DNA from: Ectopseudomonas mendocina
GTDB taxonomy: Bacteria; Pseudomonadota; Gammaproteobacteria; Pseudomonadales; Pseudomonadaceae
Direction: 5' to 3'
DNA length: 64,000 nucleotides
Assembly: GCF_016008875.1 (NCBI RefSeq)
Contig: NZ_JADTQG010000003.1
Location: forward strand, 1-64,000
Shown: in pieces, positions 146 through 34,948 of the stretch
Layout: each line of letters starts with the position of its first letter
How positions within the stretch are numbered: the first letter of the stretch is position 1
Program-made: the position numbers and the translations under genes
Notes under the pieces: model-generated
The model's input: only the letters and a program-made list of their open reading frames with translations
Databases searched by the model: none
Told to the model about the DNA's origin: nothing

Positions 146-2374
<2,229 letters not shown>

Positions 2375-2731
2375 TTAGCGTTAACTCTCTTCTTTGCTGA
2401 GCGCGCATAGAAACTCGACCTGCGCGTGTGGCGCGAACTCCGGGATGGTGGAGCCGGGTCGAGGACTCGCCGCGGTGATGTTGGATGCACCCGTAGAGTG
2501 TCGAACGTTTCGATCCGGCGGACGATGGTGTATCCCCGCCGGCTTCAAGAGGCTGCTATCCGGTTCCGGACAGGCCGCCCCTTATGACTCGTTAGTCACC
2601 TAAGCAGTATACCACTGCGGCGCCTCGCCGCAGAATGCCCAGTTGCATAAGACCTTTGCACATGTGTCTCGTCGAGCGGTTTGCGCTACTCTCGGGGATG
2701 CACACTGTCTAACCACGAGATGGAGTCCAGC
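2375..2731. other. Divergent promoter region between idh and icd
   Basis: No convincing gene lies in these 357 bases. They must hold the promoters of both isocitrate dehydrogenase genes. The only clear structure is a short GC-rich hairpin at 2615-2633 (CTGCGGCG with loop CCT). I could not assign sigma-70 boxes with confidence. Confidence 0.6.
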
Positions 2732-3988
2732 ATGGGATACCAAAAGATCCAGGTGCCAGCCAGCGGTGACAAAATCACCGTCAACGCCGATATGTCGTTG
2801 AGCGTTCCAGACAATCCGATCATCCCGTTCATCGAGGGTGATGGTATCGGCGTCGATATTTCTCCGGTGATGATCAAGGTGGTCGACGCTGCCGTCGAAA
2901 AAGCCTATGGCGGCGCTCGCAAGATTTCCTGGATGGAAGTTTATGCCGGCGAGAAGGCCACCCAGGTTTACGACCAAGACACCTGGCTGCCGAAAGAAAC
3001 CCTCGAGGCCGTGCGTGATTACGTGGTCTCGATCAAAGGCCCGCTGACCACGCCTGTGGGTGGTGGCATCCGTTCATTGAATGTGGCCCTGCGCCAGGAG
3101 CTCGACCTGTATGTCTGCTTGCGCCCGGTGCGCTGGTTCGAGGGCGTGCCCAGCCCGGTGAAAAAGCCGGGTGACGTGGACATGGTGATCTTCCGCGAGA
3201 ACTCCGAGGACATCTATGCCGGCGTCGAGTGGAAGGCTGGCAGCCCCGAGGCTGAGAAAGTCATCAAGTTCCTCACCGAGGAAATGGGCGTCAAGAAGAT
3301 TCGCTTCACCGACATGTGCGGTATCGGCATCAAGCCGGTTTCCGAGGCCGGCACCAAGCGCCTGGTGCGCAAGGCGCTGCAGTATGCGGTAGACAATGAC
3401 CGCAGTTCGGTGACCCTGGTGCACAAAGGCAACATCATGAAGTTCACCGAAGGTGCCTTCAAGGAATGGGGCTACGAGATCGCTCGCGAGGAGTTCGGCG
3501 CCGAGTTGCTCGATGGCGGTCCGTGGATGCAGTTCAAGAATCCGCGCACCGGCAAGAACATCGTGGTCAAGGATGTGATCGCCGACGCCATGTTGCAACA
3601 GATCCTGCTGCGTCCGGCTGAATATGACGTCATCGCCACGCTTAACCTCAATGGCGACTATCTGTCCGATGCGCTGGCAGCCGAGGTCGGTGGCATAGGC
3701 ATCGCGCCCGGCGCCAACCTGTCCGATTCGGTGGCCATGTTCGAGGCGACTCACGGCACGGCGCCCAAGTACGCCGGTCAGGACAAGGTCAACCCGGGCT
3801 CGGTCATCCTTTCCGCCGAGATGATGTTGCGCCACATGGGTTGGGGGGAAGCCGCCGACCTGATCATCAAAGGCACCAACGGCGCCATCTCCGCCAAGAC
3901 GGTGACCTATGACTTCGAGCGTTTGATGGAGGGGGCGAAGCTGATGTCCTGCTCCGAATTCGGCGATGCGATGATCAGCCATATGTAA
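2732..3988 (+). CDS. icd: Isocitrate dehydrogenase, NADP-dependent, dimeric type
   Basis: TCA-cycle enzyme of the E. coli Icd type, 418 residues. The N-terminal half carries FIEGDGIG (33-40) and the substrate/phosphorylation segment RSLNVALRQ, in which S115, N117, R121 and R131 correspond to E. coli S113, N115, R119 and R129. S115 is the site that AceK phosphorylates in E. coli to divert carbon into the glyoxylate shunt. I chose the ATG at 2732 because it gives the usual N-terminus (MGYQKIQVP) and has a GGAG upstream. The frame is open 51 bases further upstream. It faces cspD across a shared terminator. Confidence 0.97.
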
Positions 3989-4006
3989 GCTGATTCAGAG
4001 GCATAA

Positions 4007-4034
4007 AGAAGGCCGGTCACATGACCGGCCTTCT
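4007..4034. terminator. Bidirectional terminator between icd and cspD
   Basis: A 13-bp perfect stem (4007-4019 with 4022-4034, AGAAGGCCGGTCA) lies between two convergent genes. Its arms begin and end with A/T-rich flanks. Confidence 0.75.
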
Positions 4035-4080
4035 CGTATCCGGCACCTCGCGCCTTGATAAGGCCGTGGTGCTGGAATGC

Positions 4081-12844: not shown

Positions 12845-13471
12845 ATGCGTATTATTCGCCTGCTGATGCTGGCCGCTCTGAGCTTTACCCTGCTAACCGC
12901 CCAGGCTGACGAAGAGGCGGCCACCAAGCGCCTGACCGAACTGCTCAACCAGGCGCAGACCATCAATGCCCGTTTTTCCCAGCTGACCCTGGATGCCAGC
13001 GGCACCCAGCTGCAGGAAACCGCCGGCGAGCTGATGCTCAAGCGCCCTGGCCTGTTCCGCTGGCACACCGACCAGCCGATGGAGCAACTGCTGGTGTCCA
13101 ACGGTGAAAAGGTCTGGCTGTACGACCCGGACCTGGAACAGGTGACCATCCAGACCCTCGACCAGCGCCTGACCCACACCCCGGCCTTGTTGCTGTCCGG
13201 CGATGTGTCGCAGATTCGCGAGAACTTCGAGATCGACTACAAGGAAGGCGGCAGCGTGGTCGACTTCATCCTCAAGCCCAAGGCCAAGGACAGCCTGTTC
13301 GACAGTCTGCGCCTGTCGTTCCGCAACCGCGTGCTCAACGACATGCAGCTGATCGACAGTATCGGCCAGCGCACCAACATCCTGTTCCTCAATGTGAAGA
13401 TGAACGAGCCGGTGGATGATGGGCAGTTCACCTTCGACATTCCGGAAGGCGCGGACGTCATCCAGGAGTAA
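12845..13471 (+). CDS. lolA: Outer-membrane lipoprotein carrier protein LolA
   Basis: Periplasmic chaperone that shuttles lipoproteins from LolCDE to LolB, 208 residues including the signal peptide. The ATG at 12845 gives a classical signal peptide ([21 protein letters not shown], cleavage near residue 21). The longer frame from 12749 has no signal and is not supported. The ftsK-lolA-rarA-serS order is widely conserved. It is 3 bases from rarA. Confidence 0.95.
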
Positions 13472-26564: not shown

Positions 26565-27260
26565 CTAGGCGCCAATCAACGTCGTGATCTGATTGACGCT
26601 GATCACCTGGCCGCTCCAGATCATCTCGTAGTGCGCCCTCTGGATTATCGAACTCACGGAACGTGGCGTCATCAGCGCCCAGCAGATATTGCCGGCAGAG
26701 CGCACCGAGTGATAGCGCAGGCCCATGCATCCTGTGATTTTGGCCTCGGCCCCCAGCTGATTGGAGTGGGTGTAGTCGCTCGGAGCGTAGATGTGGTCCG
26801 ACAGCGGTACGACCGTCGCGTCTCTCAACCCCGTTTCGTTGAAGTTGGCAGTCAGTCCTCTGAAGACGAAGCGCTCATAATTGAGCTCCGGCACCTTCGA
26901 CCAGTAGTTTTCCTGGTGGTAGCAAACCTCGGCAATCGCGGTGTCCATTGTGTCCGCCAGGTACAGCACGCCAAAGCTGCCGTTGCTGAAGCGCGAGCCG
27001 GCCGGGTTGACGTGAGTGAAGGGGGCCGTCGCGTAGGAGCAGCCGGCAATGCCGAAGGGAATCTGATCGCGCGGGATCAGCTCCAGGCGACCAATCTCGT
27101 TCTGCAGTCGTGGATTGGTCAGCGCCTGGATCTGATAGAGGGCTTCGAAGTCCTCTGCGTCCGCGACATCATCGAACAGGGCGATGGGCGGGAACTTGGA
27201 GTTGACCAGGCGATAGGCCTGTACCGGCTCATCATCCAGCAGCGGTAGGTCGCTGAGCAT
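26565..27260 (-). CDS. RES-domain toxin
   Basis: A 231-residue RES-family protein. In the characterised members (MbcT, and the RES toxins of Pseudomonas and Photorhabdus) these are NAD-degrading toxins with an ADP-ribosyltransferase-like fold. The name-giving residues can be placed as R17 (AYRLV), E111 (IAEVCYH) and S185 (YHSVRSAG). The family stretch NPAGSRFSNGSFGVLYLAD is at 86-104. The ATG overlaps the antitoxin stop as TAATG, so translation is coupled; a GTG two codons upstream is possible. It ends 161 bases from tRNA-Leu. Family assignment is firm; activity is inferred. Confidence 0.88.
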   Translation of the reverse strand: MLSDLPLLDDEPVQAYRLVNSKFPPIALFDDVADAEDFEALYQIQALTNPRLQNEIGRLELIPRDQIPFGIAGCSYATAPFTHVNPAGSRFSNGSFGVLYLADTMDTAIAEVCYHQENYWSKVPELNYERFVFRGLTANFNETGLRDATVVPLSDHIYAPSDYTHSNQLGAEAKITGCMGLRYHSVRSAGNICWALMTPRSVSSIIQRAHYEMIWSGQVISVNQITTLIGA

Positions 27261-27667
27261 TACCACTGAGCACCTCGCAGGGTGTCGATGCGCCGGAACG
27301 TCTCGTACAACGAGATCATGTCGCCTTGCGCCATGACTTCCATTGGCGTGCGGCCGTTGAAGAACTCGTTGTGGTTCTCCATCAGGGCAAAGCCGTAGAC
27401 GTTATCGGGGTTGTCGAACACCACGCGCAATGCGGCATGGATATTCAGCACCAGGCTGATGCGCTGCATCTGATCGGAGTCCAGGTTTACCGTCCACGTC
27501 GAGTCTTTCTGACTGGCGCGAGTGTAGGTGCTGCGGGAGATTCGTAGCACTCGGCAGGCCTGTTCGGCTGAGGCCTTCCACTTGTCGAGAATGTTCAACG
27601 CCGCGCGCAGGCCGGCTGCGCACTGGCTTTTCGAGAAGTCCTGAACCTGGAGGGCTGTAGCAGTCAT
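27260..27667 (-). CDS. Xre/MbcA/ParS-family antitoxin of the RES system
   Basis: A 135-residue protein with a helix-turn-helix region (about 29-50, WKASAEQACRVLRISRSTY) and a C-terminal DUF2384/MbcA-ParS-Xre toxin-binding domain (about 65-135) including NVYGFALMENHNEFFNGRTPMEVM. It should neutralise the RES toxin and repress the operon. I chose the ATG at 27667. The upstream reading of 176 codons crosses the nrdD promoter and is not credible. The DNA just upstream is clearly AT-richer than the surroundings. Confidence 0.88.
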   Translation of the reverse strand: MTATALQVQDFSKSQCAAGLRAALNILDKWKASAEQACRVLRISRSTYTRASQKDSTWTVNLDSDQMQRISLVLNIHAALRVVFDNPDNVYGFALMENHNEFFNGRTPMEVMAQGDMISLYETFRRIDTLRGAQW

Positions 27668-27880: not shown

Positions 27881-29899
27881 ATGTATAAGGAGCGTGTTCC
27901 TTACCGACCGCAGTCGCTGTTCAAGCGCGACGGCCAGGAGGTGCCTTTCGAGGGGGCCAAGATAGAGCGTGCGATCACCGCTGCTGGCCAGGCAACGGGG
28001 GAATTCGCGGCGATTGAGGCCAGGGCGCTGACCGACGCGGTACTGGCACGTCTGGTGGAGTTCCGCAGCCTGGAAGTGGAGCAGGTCCAGGACCGGGTCG
28101 AGCAGGTGCTGATGGAGGCCGGTTACTATCAGACCGCACGCGCCTATATCGTCTACCGCGAGCGGCATGGACGTTTGCGGCGCGACCGCAAGCACCTGAT
28201 TGATGTGGCGGCGTCGATGAACGAATACTTGTCACGCGAGGATTGGCGGGTGCAGGCCAACGCCAACCAGGGCTATTCACTGGGTGGGCTGATTCTCAAC
28301 GTATCCGGCAAGGTGACGGCCAACTACTGGCTGGACGAGGTATACAGCGAGGAGGTCGGCCGGGCGCACCGCGAGGCCGACCTGCACATCCATGACCTCG
28401 ACATGCTGGCCGGATACTGCGCGGGTTGGTCGCTGCGCACGCTGCTGCATGAGGGTTTCAATGGCATCGCGGGGCGGGTCGAGGCAGGGCCGCCCAAGCA
28501 TCTGTCCAGCGCGCTGGGGCAGATGGTCAACTTCCTCGGTACCCTGCAGAACGAATGGGCCGGGGCCCAGGCGTTCAGCTCGTTCGATACCTACCTGGCG
28601 CCGTTCGTGCGCAAGGATGGCCTGAGCTACGACGAAATCCGCCAGGCCATTCAGGAGTTCATCTACAACCTCAACGTGCCGTCGCGCTGGGGGACACAGA
28701 CGCCTTTCACCAACCTGACCTTCGACTGGGTCTGCCCCGAGGACCTGCGCGAGCAGGTGCCGGTGATCGGTGGCCATGAGATGCCGTTCTGCTACGGCGA
28801 CCTGCAGGGCGAGATGGAACTGATCAACCGCGCCTACATCGAGGTGATGATGGCGGGCGACGCGAAAGGGCGGGTGTTCACCTTCCCGATCCCGACCTAC
28901 AACATCACCCACGACTTCCCCTGGGACAGCGACAACGCCACGCGTCTGTTCGACATGACTGCACGCTATGGCCTGCCGTACTTCCAGAACTTCCTCAATT
29001 CGGACATGCAGCCCAATCAGGTGCGTTCGATGTGCTGCCGCCTGCAACTGGACGTGCGTGAGCTACTGAAACGCGGCAACGGCTTGTTCGGCTCGGCGGA
29101 GCAGACCGGATCTCTTGGCGTGGTGACCATCAACTGCGCGCGCCTGGGCTATCGCCATCGGCAGGATCTGCCCGGCCTGCTGCAGCGCCTGGATGCGCTG
29201 CTGGACATGGCGTACGAAAGCCTGGAGGTCAAACGCAAGGTCATTCAGCACCACATGGATGCAGGGCTTTATCCCTATACTCGACGCTACCTGGGCACCC
29301 TGCGCAATCACTTCTCCACCATTGGCGTGAACGGCCTGCACGAGATGCTGCGCAACTTCAGCGATGACCGTGAAGGCATGCAAACCGAGCTGGGTCGTGA
29401 ACTGGCGCTGCATGTGCTCGATCATGTGCGGGCGCGCCTGGTGCAATTCCAGGAGCGTAGCGGTCACCTTTACAACCTCGAAGCGACGCCGGCCGAGGGC
29501 ACCACCTACCGCTTCGCCAAGGAGGACCAGAAGCGCTTCCCCGATATCCTCCAGGCTGGCACGGTCGAGGCGCCTTACTACACCAACTCCTCGCAACTGC
29601 CGGTCGGTTTCACCGACGATCCCTTCGAGGCCTTGGCCCTGCAGGACGAGCTGCAATGCAAGTACACCGGCGGCACCGTGCTGCACCTGTATATGGCCGA
29701 GCGGATTTCTTCGGCGCAGGCCTGCAAGCAACTGGTGCGCACGGCGCTGTCGCGCTTCCGCCTGCCGTACCTGACCATCACCCCGACTTTTTCCATCTGC
29801 CCGGTGCACGGTTACCTGGCCGGCGAACATGAGTTCTGTCCGAAGTGCGACGAGGCAATGCTGCAGAAACAGCAGTGCTGCGGCGCCTGCGGCGGCTGA
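27881..29899 (+). CDS. nrdD: Anaerobic ribonucleoside-triphosphate reductase, large (catalytic) part without glycyl-radical domain
   Basis: Class III reductase that makes dNTPs without oxygen. The 672 residues start with an ATP-cone (about 8-95, VPYRPQSLFKRDGQEVPFEG), then the ten-stranded barrel with the MCCRLQLD segment likely to hold the active-site Cys. The end is a metal-binding ribbon with C640, H643, C653 and C656 plus a Cys-rich tail (C666, C667, C670) ending CGACGG. The glycyl-radical segment that normally follows the ribbon is absent: a stop codon intervenes and the segment is encoded by the next ORF. The ATG at 27881 has GGGAGG upstream. Confidence 0.93.
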   Translation: MYKERVPYRPQSLFKRDGQEVPFEGAKIERAITAAGQATGEFAAIEARALTDAVLARLVEFRSLEVEQVQDRVEQVLMEAGYYQTARAYIVYRERHGRLRRDRKHLIDVAASMNEYLSREDWRVQANANQGYSLGGLILNVSGKVTANYWLDEVYSEEVGRAHREADLHIHDLDMLAGYCAGWSLRTLLHEGFNGIAGRVEAGPPKHLSSALGQMVNFLGTLQNEWAGAQAFSSFDTYLAPFVRKDGLSYDEIRQAIQEFIYNLNVPSRWGTQTPFTNLTFDWVCPEDLREQVPVIGGHEMPFCYGDLQGEMELINRAYIEVMMAGDAKGRVFTFPIPTYNITHDFPWDSDNATRLFDMTARYGLPYFQNFLNSDMQPNQVRSMCCRLQLDVRELLKRGNGLFGSAEQTGSLGVVTINCARLGYRHRQDLPGLLQRLDALLDMAYESLEVKRKVIQHHMDAGLYPYTRRYLGTLRNHFSTIGVNGLHEMLRNFSDDREGMQTELGRELALHVLDHVRARLVQFQERSGHLYNLEATPAEGTTYRFAKEDQKRFPDILQAGTVEAPYYTNSSQLPVGFTDDPFEALALQDELQCKYTGGTVLHLYMAERISSAQACKQLVRTALSRFRLPYLTITPTFSICPVHGYLAGEHEFCPKCDEAMLQKQQCCGACGG

Positions 29900-29930
29900 A
29901 GACCTATTACCCACCACAAGGAGCGACACC

Positions 29931-30080
29931 ATGAATGCACAGCTGAAACTTCCCGAAGCCCAGCGTCAGCGTTGCGAGGTCTGGACCCGGGTGATGGGTT
30001 ACCACCGCCCGGTGACGGCCTTCAACCTGGGCAAGCAATCGGAGCATCGCGAGCGCCAGCATTTCGTCGAGCCACGCTGA
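29931..30080 (+). CDS. Stand-alone glycyl-radical domain of NrdD (split class III reductase)
   Basis: A 49-residue ORF, 31 bases after nrdD, with a good ribosome-binding site (AAGGAG, 8 bases from the ATG). The sequence CEVWTRVMGYHRPVTAFNLG (15-34) matches the C-terminal glycyl-radical segment of class III reductases, usually of the form CEVYSRVVGYxRPVxxWNxGK. The radical residue would be G23 in RVMGY. The protein would have to associate with NrdD and be activated by NrdG, the next gene. The same stretch being fused in most NrdD proteins is family knowledge; function as a separate chain is inferred. Confidence 0.82.
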   Translation: MNAQLKLPEAQRQRCEVWTRVMGYHRPVTAFNLGKQSEHRERQHFVEPR

Positions 30081-30093
30081 GTGCGCCGCGAGT

Positions 30094-30115
30094 CCGGGCC
30101 ATCGCCATGGCCCGG
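30094..30115. other. Strong hairpin between the glycyl-radical ORF and nrdG
   Basis: A 9-bp perfect stem, CCGGGCCAT-CGCC-ATGGCCCGG, lies in the 67-base gap before nrdG. No T-run follows at once, so it may be an mRNA-stabilising or partial attenuator structure and not a full terminator. Confidence 0.5.
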
Positions 30116-30147
30116 GCTTCGTCATCTTAATGCCCGGAGCGACGACC

Positions 30148-30873
30148 ATGCCTGCAACCCCTTTGCATCCTACCCACCAAGCGTTGCGCATTGGCGGATT
30201 GCAGCCGATGACGACCCTCGATTACCCCGATCACCTGGCCTGCGTGCTGTTCTGCCAGGGCTGTGCATGGCGCTGCCGCTATTGCCACAACCCGGAACTG
30301 ATTCGCTGCGGTACGACGAGCACCGAATGGAGCTGGGCCAAGGTGCTGGATTTCCTGCAGCAGCGCCAGGGATTGCTGCAGGCGGTCGTGTTTTCCGGTG
30401 GCGAGGCCACGCTGCAGTTGGCCTTGCCGTCGGCCATGCGTCGGGTGCGCGAGCTGGGTTTCAAGGTCGGCTTGCACAGCGCCGGGATCAAACCGGCTTC
30501 GTTCGGACGCGCACTGGCGCACTGCGACTGGGTCGGATTCGACGTCAAGGCATTGGAGGAAGAGGCGGCGCTGATCACCGGCGTCAGCGGCAGCGGCCAG
30601 GCCAACTGGAAAAGCCTGGAGCTGCTGCTGGCAAGCGGTGTGAGCTACGAATGCCGCACCACGGTGCATTGGGACCTGTTCGATTGCCGGCACTTGCGAC
30701 GTTTGGGCGAACGCCTGGCAGCGCAAGGTGTTCGCCGCTTCGCAGTGCAGCTGGCTCGCTCGCAGCGGATGCTCGACGAGCAGTTGGGCACTGCTGCCAC
30801 ACCACCGCAGGCGGAAGAGCTCTGGCCTTACTTCAAGCAACTGTTCGAACGTTTTGAACTGCGCGCGGCCTAG
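30148..30873 (+). CDS. nrdG: Anaerobic ribonucleotide reductase activating protein NrdG
   Basis: A radical-SAM activase that installs the glycyl radical, 241 residues from the ATG at 30148. The cluster motif C39-x3-C43-x2-C46 (CAWRCRYC) is intact and followed by HNPEL. GGEATLQ is the SAM-binding GGE motif. The ATG at 30148 is preferred over 30130 because GGAG lies 8 bases upstream of it, the same leader pattern as the preceding ORF. It completes the nrdD / radical-domain / nrdG unit. Confidence 0.93.
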   Translation: MPATPLHPTHQALRIGGLQPMTTLDYPDHLACVLFCQGCAWRCRYCHNPELIRCGTTSTEWSWAKVLDFLQQRQGLLQAVVFSGGEATLQLALPSAMRRVRELGFKVGLHSAGIKPASFGRALAHCDWVGFDVKALEEEAALITGVSGSGQANWKSLELLLASGVSYECRTTVHWDLFDCRHLRRLGERLAAQGVRRFAVQLARSQRMLDEQLGTAATPPQAEELWPYFKQLFERFELRAA

Positions 30874-34934: not shown

Positions 34935-34948
34935 TTGATCGATATCAA
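34935..34948. promoter_or_regulatory. ANR box, DUF3079-proximal
   Basis: TTGATCGATATCAA is a perfect TTGAT-N4-ATCAA palindrome. It is 63 bases from the DUF3079 start and 105 from ubiU. Confidence 0.82.

Follow-up and report, generated by a model that had tools for sequence, protein, structure and literature searches.

The window, by which we mean the whole 64,000-nucleotide stretch of DNA that was analysed, carries a class III ribonucleotide reductase (RNR) locus in which the glycyl-radical segment is encoded by a small open reading frame (ORF) of its own, placed between the large nrdD gene and nrdG (Table 1). The nrdD stop is TGA, and 31 nt lie between it and the small-ORF ATG at 29931; the separate ORF with its own Shine-Dalgarno (SD) sequence and start, the gap and the adjoining nrdG, all noted in an earlier sequence-only reading, were each seen in the sequence. 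The small ORF contains CEVWTRVMGYHRPV, and its residue 23 is the presumed radical glycine.

Table 1. Features of the nrdD locus, in window coordinates
Feature	Position	Strand	Remarks
Perfect Anr/Dnr/FNR-type box TTGATCACGATCAA	27779-27792	+	Begins 102 nt upstream of nrdD ATG
nrdD large chain	27881-29899	+	672 aa; ATP-cone, barrel core and zinc ribbon; glycyl-radical motif absent
ATP-cone, residues 15-97	27923-28171	+	PF03477, E 3.6e-20
Zinc ribbon CPVHG...CPKC, C640-C656	29798-29848	+	Gly644 is the counterpart of H16 Gly650
Shine-Dalgarno AAGGAG of small ORF	29918-29923	+	7 nt before ATG
Small chain, 49 aa, glycyl-radical segment	29931-30080	+	ATG start; +1 frame relative to nrdD
Cys15 codon of small chain	29973-29975	+	Split-specific; same in 147/147 distinct small chains
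Gly23 codon, presumed radical glycine	29997-29999	+	
nrdG2-type radical-SAM activase	30130-30873	+	Alternative start at 30148 possible

In a Pfam search, the large chain covered positions 2-529 of the 562 positions of PF13597 (E 2.2e-174) and the small chain positions 531-562 (E 2.8e-8), the missing end, with zero overlap between the matches; NrdD thus does break off where the glycyl segment normally continues, as had been claimed. The glycyl-radical loop therefore lies on a separate 49-aa chain outside the large polypeptide, unlike the definition of class III. Within the window's own genome (5.1 Mb, rated 100% complete), no further PF13597 place and no match to the PFL-type glycyl domain PF01228 were found, the small chain matching PF13597 only; a fused nrdD elsewhere in the genome, named earlier as possible counter-evidence, did not turn up in the profile search. 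The activase beside nrdD is NrdG2 by TIGR02495 (E 7.8e-61). The Cys-rich end attributed to the large chain holds for the ribbon proper; conservation does not extend to the other Cys that follow in the tail (QQCCGACGG), Cys occurring in the post-ribbon tail at 55 of 163 junctions.

Two perfect FNR-type boxes occur in the window (0.01 expected from shuffles), one upstream of nrdD and a second at 34935-34948, upstream of an ORF from about 35053 that, by eye, looks like the U32 genes of locus L207 (below). The Dnr box of Pseudomonas aeruginosa nrdD sits at -98 (PMC5645315). The genes after nrdG encode an NnrS protein, a DUF542-hemerythrin protein and a sigma-54 activator with a GAF domain (NorR-like), and form a denitrification neighbourhood. 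Just upstream of nrdD, RES-domain and Xre-like HTH genes on the minus strand (26565-27667) are likely to be a toxin-antitoxin pair. Between the small ORF and nrdG lies a hairpin, CCGGGCCAT CGCC ATGGCCCGG (30090-30119), with an energy unexceptional for its composition (z -1.17).

Translation and distribution of the small chain

Removal of 41 repeats from 204 split loci left 163 distinct junctions, with none dropped for other reasons. Read against the large ORF, the small ORF is in frame 0 at 34 junctions, +1 at 59 and +2 at 70; the gap, obtained for 162, spans -38 to +483 nt. With the best candidate start taken, the small ORF begins with ATG in 162/163 and at least 4 nt of AAGGAGGT stand 4-13 nt before it in 162/163; this choice of start favoured a good SD, and the unbiased recount at the nearest ATG gave at least 4 nt in 151/163, and in 92/92 ORFs with one ATG only, over a background rate of 14.6% for 4454 ATGs inside nrdD. 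No RNA element was found across the nrdD/small-ORF junction (fold z +1.67). At L207 (genome G801), the small gene (13147-13329) stands directly upstream of nrdG, while the large nrdD (1997-4042) is some 9 kb off; U32, nitronate monooxygenase, HemN-like, Crp-type and radical-SAM genes separate the two, on the opposite strand. In this one genome, the small chain is thus tied to the activase and works in trans.

Profile searches found NrdD in 32 of 149 genomes of the genus, all 32 junctions being split; in 38 of 99 genomes of the family, with 37/37 assessable junctions split (G225 was left out of this count, its junction being lost at a contig end); and in 14 of 25 genomes of a neighbouring genus, again all split (14/14). 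Class-wide, 28 of 274 genomes matched (20 split, 6 one-piece, 2 fragments or weak), and phylum-wide 57 of 398, comprising 13 split (two, G676 and G706, being from beyond the class), 43 one-piece (at least 26 with a distant E. coli-type end) and 1 weak; the four samples share a few genomes. Fused close relatives, which would have pointed to an error at this site, were found in neither genus nor family. The question raised earlier of whether the genus keeps the split is thus answered in the affirmative by all 32 genomes with NrdD, and the genus proved too narrow a frame, since the split extends to Gamma-, Beta- and Alphaproteobacteria and one Campylobacterota plasmid.

Among plasmids, the small chain was matched in 29 of 72,556 records; of ten loci opened, seven are split, including those of Cupriavidus necator H16, C. 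metallidurans CH34 and the Campylobacterota plasmid of Sulfuricurvum, two are one-piece (Acidiphilium and Actinomyces), and one has a small ORF without NrdD within 3 kb. This last (L178, Allochromatium vinosum pALVIN01, 2992-3201) is a 70-aa small nrdD ORF adjoining a CHAP-domain gene. On Bradyrhizobium japonicum pS11L-3 (L172, 575-3162), an IS3-type element lies upstream of a shortened large-chain frame of 381 codons, with the small ORF and nrdG beside it. An insert of roughly 310 residues, in frame and containing a LAGLIDADG domain, interrupts the large chain in G376 contig 2 (L087/L083) and is probably an intein.

MCCR stands in place of SCCR in 162 of 163 large chains, a trait of the NrdDh4 group (PMC4493059), and also in the one-piece L061, L062, L077, L175, L176 and L210, which belong to the same motif group and are unsplit. 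In the window, GLFG follows MCCR; its Phe may be the one that the NrdDh4 group has at the finger-loop position of Ile359 (PMC4493059). The putative zinc ribbon is present as CPxH...C[PA]xC in 163/163 large chains. Class I small subunit genes occur in 20 of 27 split genomes against 3 of 5 one-piece genomes, and the haem-copper oxidase (COX1) family, NO reductases included, in 23 of 27 against 3 of 5.

Conservation and evolutionary history

The pN/pS ratio, taken over 30 codons of the small chain, is 0.13; synonymous sites are close to saturation. Among 147 distinct small chains, R12, C15, R20, M22, G23, R26, P27, N32, G34, K35 and E38 are invariant and L7 is kept in 122, a count free of motif selection, such as the earlier choice of rows that had fixed the Cys, one Arg, the Met and the Gly. 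L7, R12 and C15 (L....R..C) make up an N-terminal signature special to split chains: in the rows compared, one-piece NrdDs have Thr, Val or Ile at the place of Cys15, except in Acidiphilium and Actinomyces, which keep the split-type Cys and fall among the split rows in quick trees. Cys15 was considered as a fourth zinc ligand; the ribbon His may be the ligand instead, since one-piece relatives keep CPxH...CxxC without Cys15. In the quick trees, from which very distant rows had been taken out, a single clade of all split rows was rejected (p-AU 0.0036). Together with the placement of Acidiphilium and Actinomyces, this suggests that splits and refusions probably occurred more than once, the placement of long rows being unsure.

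Structure model

A surrogate, with both ORFs joined into one covalent chain, was modelled with AlphaFold (mean pLDDT 85.6, pTM 0.81) from an alignment of 81 rows that includes fused and read-through rows, so that docking is partly imposed. The pLDDT is 94-95 in the ribbon, 53-59 in the linker between the two chains, which is disordered, 84-94 in small-chain residues 691-730 and 51-57 in the poorly modelled finger-loop region (381-410); folded alone, the small chain gave moderate values (pLDDT 75.4, pTM 0.37). The best structural matches of the surrogate are NrdDs and extend along almost all of it; Prevotella copri 8p2s_B leads with 554 residues aligned at rmsd 2.8 (Z 34.3), those of T4 and Thermotoga maritima rank next, and Foldseek agrees. 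Aligned-end offsets, which give register only roughly, place Gly23 (surrogate residue 706) on G580 by an offset of 126 that is the same for five T4 entries, and on G621 at an offset of 85 to T. maritima 4coj, 4coi and 4com (4col is two off, and four entries reach the tail), while in the P. copri entries it falls on 712, one off the named G711. G580 and G621 are named for T4 and T. maritima in PMC4493059, and G711 for P. copri in PMC11226230. The docking of the small chain, which the sequence-only reading had suggested modelling, is seen in this partly imposed model, where Gly23 is predicted to lie in the barrel at T4 Gly580. The glycyl domain is described as flipping out to NrdG and as mobile in P. 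copri, and as ordered in Streptococcus thermophilus NrdD (PMC11226230, PMC12662201); by analogy, a separate chain would be an extreme form of this mobility.

Class III function in split species

Locus L227 (genome G891) has an nrdD of 675 codons with the P. aeruginosa Dnr box TTGACGCAGATCAA at exactly -98, on which grounds G891 is very probably P. aeruginosa. Its nrdD is split by an in-frame TGA with the small-ORF ATG 42 nt later; the small-ORF stop overlaps the next ATG. In P. aeruginosa, anaerobic growth is strongly reduced in an nrdD deletion mutant, and biofilm formation was restored by cloned nrdDG (PMC4860495); for C. necator H16, complete denitrification is said to depend essentially on NrdDG (PMC2864759). 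On the class III function reported for split species, the split enzyme works in cells.

On C. necator H16 pHG1 (L169, 771-3144), NrdD has 676 aa (76.19 kDa) and the radical motif lies on a 66-aa ORF 142 nt after it. Siedow and co-workers are reported to have assigned the radical of H16 NrdD to G650 in 1999 on the strength of a G650A mutant. In the sequence, position 650 is occupied by the Gly of the zinc-ribbon motif CPTHG; with the radical motif on the downstream ORF, that reported assignment looks wrong from the sequence. An upstream start was rejected as the source of the reported 30.9-kDa size of H16 NrdG, the longest in-frame start yielding 27.05 kDa. For C. metallidurans, the CH34 paper gives NrdDG as Rmet_5137 and Rmet_5139, and Rmet_5138 would accordingly be the small gene.

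Stand-alone small chains in phages

IMG/VR was scanned with the small-chain alignment, giving 169 stretches, of which 159 were relatives and 80 of these were kept (L252-L331). In 79 of the 80 loci the small chain is on a frame without the NrdD core, the exception, L324, being truncated by the end of its contig; the DNA fetched around the 79 showed no NrdD core. These 79 chains represent 59 different cores and have R12 in 79 and C15 in 77; by the rule used, 76 have a start codon, preceded in 61 by an SD of at least 4 nt. Fifty records, picked among the longer of the 80 with L320, L324 and L329 (over 10 kb) left out, were searched whole: each had one PF13597 match, always within 529-562, and none had NrdG2 (0/50, the records possibly being fragments). 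Twenty neighbour proteins were taken from 7 contigs, and in 6 of these contigs phage genes were recognised, namely those for terminase, tail fibre, DNA polymerase, clamp loader, helicase, primase and holin; for L271, the single neighbour protein tried gave no recognised phage gene. INPHARED yielded a match in 1 of 50,697 records at E 0.01. PHROG 4132 (unknown function), an unnamed and longer family (179 positions against the 49 aa of the small chain), matches the small chain at profile positions 117-152 (E 1.2e-8).

On the minus strand of G508 contig 3 (L216), at about 1.5-1.8 kb, a second small-chain gene is flanked by recT and ssb in a prophage-like setting; this genome has another copy beside its nrdD. 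E. coli YfiD and T4 Y06I, both for pyruvate formate-lyase (PFL), were the only validated spare parts in 2021, others being called possible (PMC8683613); by analogy, the phage chains are candidate spare parts for an RNR, the first of their kind.

Interpretation

We consider it very likely that the locus encodes a two-chain class III RNR of the MCCR (NrdDh4-like) group, consisting of a large NrdD and a separate glycyl chain of about 50 residues. The findings support a real two-gene enzyme in which a chain that is initiated separately carries the radical segment. In the proposed mechanism, NrdD would supply the barrel, the allosteric sites and the zinc ribbon, and the separately translated chain the glycyl-radical loop and C-terminal tail. 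The small chain would plug non-covalently into the barrel, Gly23 taking the place of T4 Gly580, and the neighbouring NrdG2-type activase would charge it in the barrel or on the way. The glycyl chain would be exchangeable to the point that its gene can lie at a distance from that of the large chain and phages can carry it by itself. We infer non-covalent assembly in the cell, a radical on Gly23 and exchange of the chain, as well as the dissociation and the repair by replacement suggested in the sequence-only reading; exchange and repair are plausible and are put forward as proposals.

The split may be maintained because the small chain is a spare part: O2 would destroy it at the radical glycine, and the cheap 49-residue part would be discarded and replaced. 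We give this slightly less than an even chance, and the same to its phage side, in which the part is carried to keep or revive the host NrdD, as Y06I/YfiD do for PFL. The stand-alone phage chains argue for it, the whole records holding only the 529-562 end and no NrdG2, as do the adjoining phage genes, the G508 gene between recT and ssb, and the YfiD/Y06I precedent, spare parts for other GREs being an open question in PMC8683613. Against it, the small chain is the sole radical carrier found in the window's genome and hence no spare; the haem-copper oxidase counts do not single out split genomes by aerobic life; a phage could use the part merely to raise activity, or to capture host NrdD; and the INPHARED match is a single record. 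We hold somewhat more tentatively still the broadest proposal, that throughout the group the glycyl radical sits on an exchangeable 50-residue cofactor protein common to bacteria and phages, which is replaced after O2 damage, and that phages use their own copies to maintain or start up the dNTP synthesis of the host when oxygen is low.

It is rather unlikely that the split arose and stays without benefit, the segment folding back in place with occasional refusion. The one-piece Acidiphilium and Actinomyces NrdDs that keep the split-type Cys among split rows, and the linker disordered in the model, would fit such a neutral fission, but the persistence of the split in most sampled families of the group, the L....R..C signature and the stand-alone phage copies suggest a role.

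Far less probable is a fused NrdD made by readthrough or programmed frameshift. It could draw on the in-frame stop at 34 of 163 junctions, the P. aeruginosa-like genome among them, but frame and gap are so variable that neither process can serve such a set, an own SD and ATG are nearly always present, and one small gene is distant. Least credible of all is a broken gene or a sequencing or assembly error: no support for a pseudogene or an assembly error was found, and both are ruled out by 32/32 split genomes of the genus and pN/pS 0.13, with class III function in split species also against a defect. The earlier judgement that this is not a simple nonsense mutation stands on conservation, varying frame, own SD and ATG, purifying selection, the trans arrangement and the stand-alone phage copies.

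Class III RNR is described as one catalytic chain with its own glycyl radical; in the two-chain enzyme the radical segment comes from a gene of its own, as in denitrifiers and, very probably, also in P. aeruginosa. Results obtained with NrdD alone or with nrdD clones lacking the small ORF, or the reported C. necator G650, would be misread. The two-chain enzyme is a natural system for studying how NrdG reaches the glycine. Spare parts for GREs besides PFL, an open question in PMC8683613, become directly testable, with phage versions ready, and an exchangeable glycyl chain, if true, would be the first spare-part system outside PFL by the knowledge of 2021 in that source. No published account of a split class III RNR was recognised in the literature searched, which covered few subscription journals. 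The small gene is already annotated, automated annotation calling some small ORFs nrdD and one "hypothetical protein", so it is not unseen; an account of its meaning was not found in that literature. A 2014 review, probably by Torrents of the P. aeruginosa work, treats the split class II enzyme as exceptional and class III as NrdD plus NrdG (PMC4009431).

Comparison with known systems

The one-chain NrdDs of T4, T. maritima, P. copri and S. thermophilus share the ATP-cone or barrel, zinc ribbon, radical loop and NrdG activase with the enzyme described here, which differs in having the radical loop and tail on a separate chain, cut between the zinc site and the loop. By the limits given for the glycyl radical domain of P. 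copri (PMC11226230), the cut is internal to that domain. YfiD/GrcA and T4 Y06I are likewise small, separate glycyl-radical chains for a barrel enzyme, and phage versions exist (PMC8683613). Unlike YfiD/GrcA, the small chain belongs to another family, PF01228 having no match in its own genome, and is the only carrier found, with no full-length radical-bearing partner found in that genome. The class II NrdJa/NrdJb of P. aeruginosa is a B12 enzyme without a glycyl radical and is divided at another point. Like the present enzyme, it has its catalytic RNR protein encoded in two consecutive ORFs (PMC4009431, PMC4860495).
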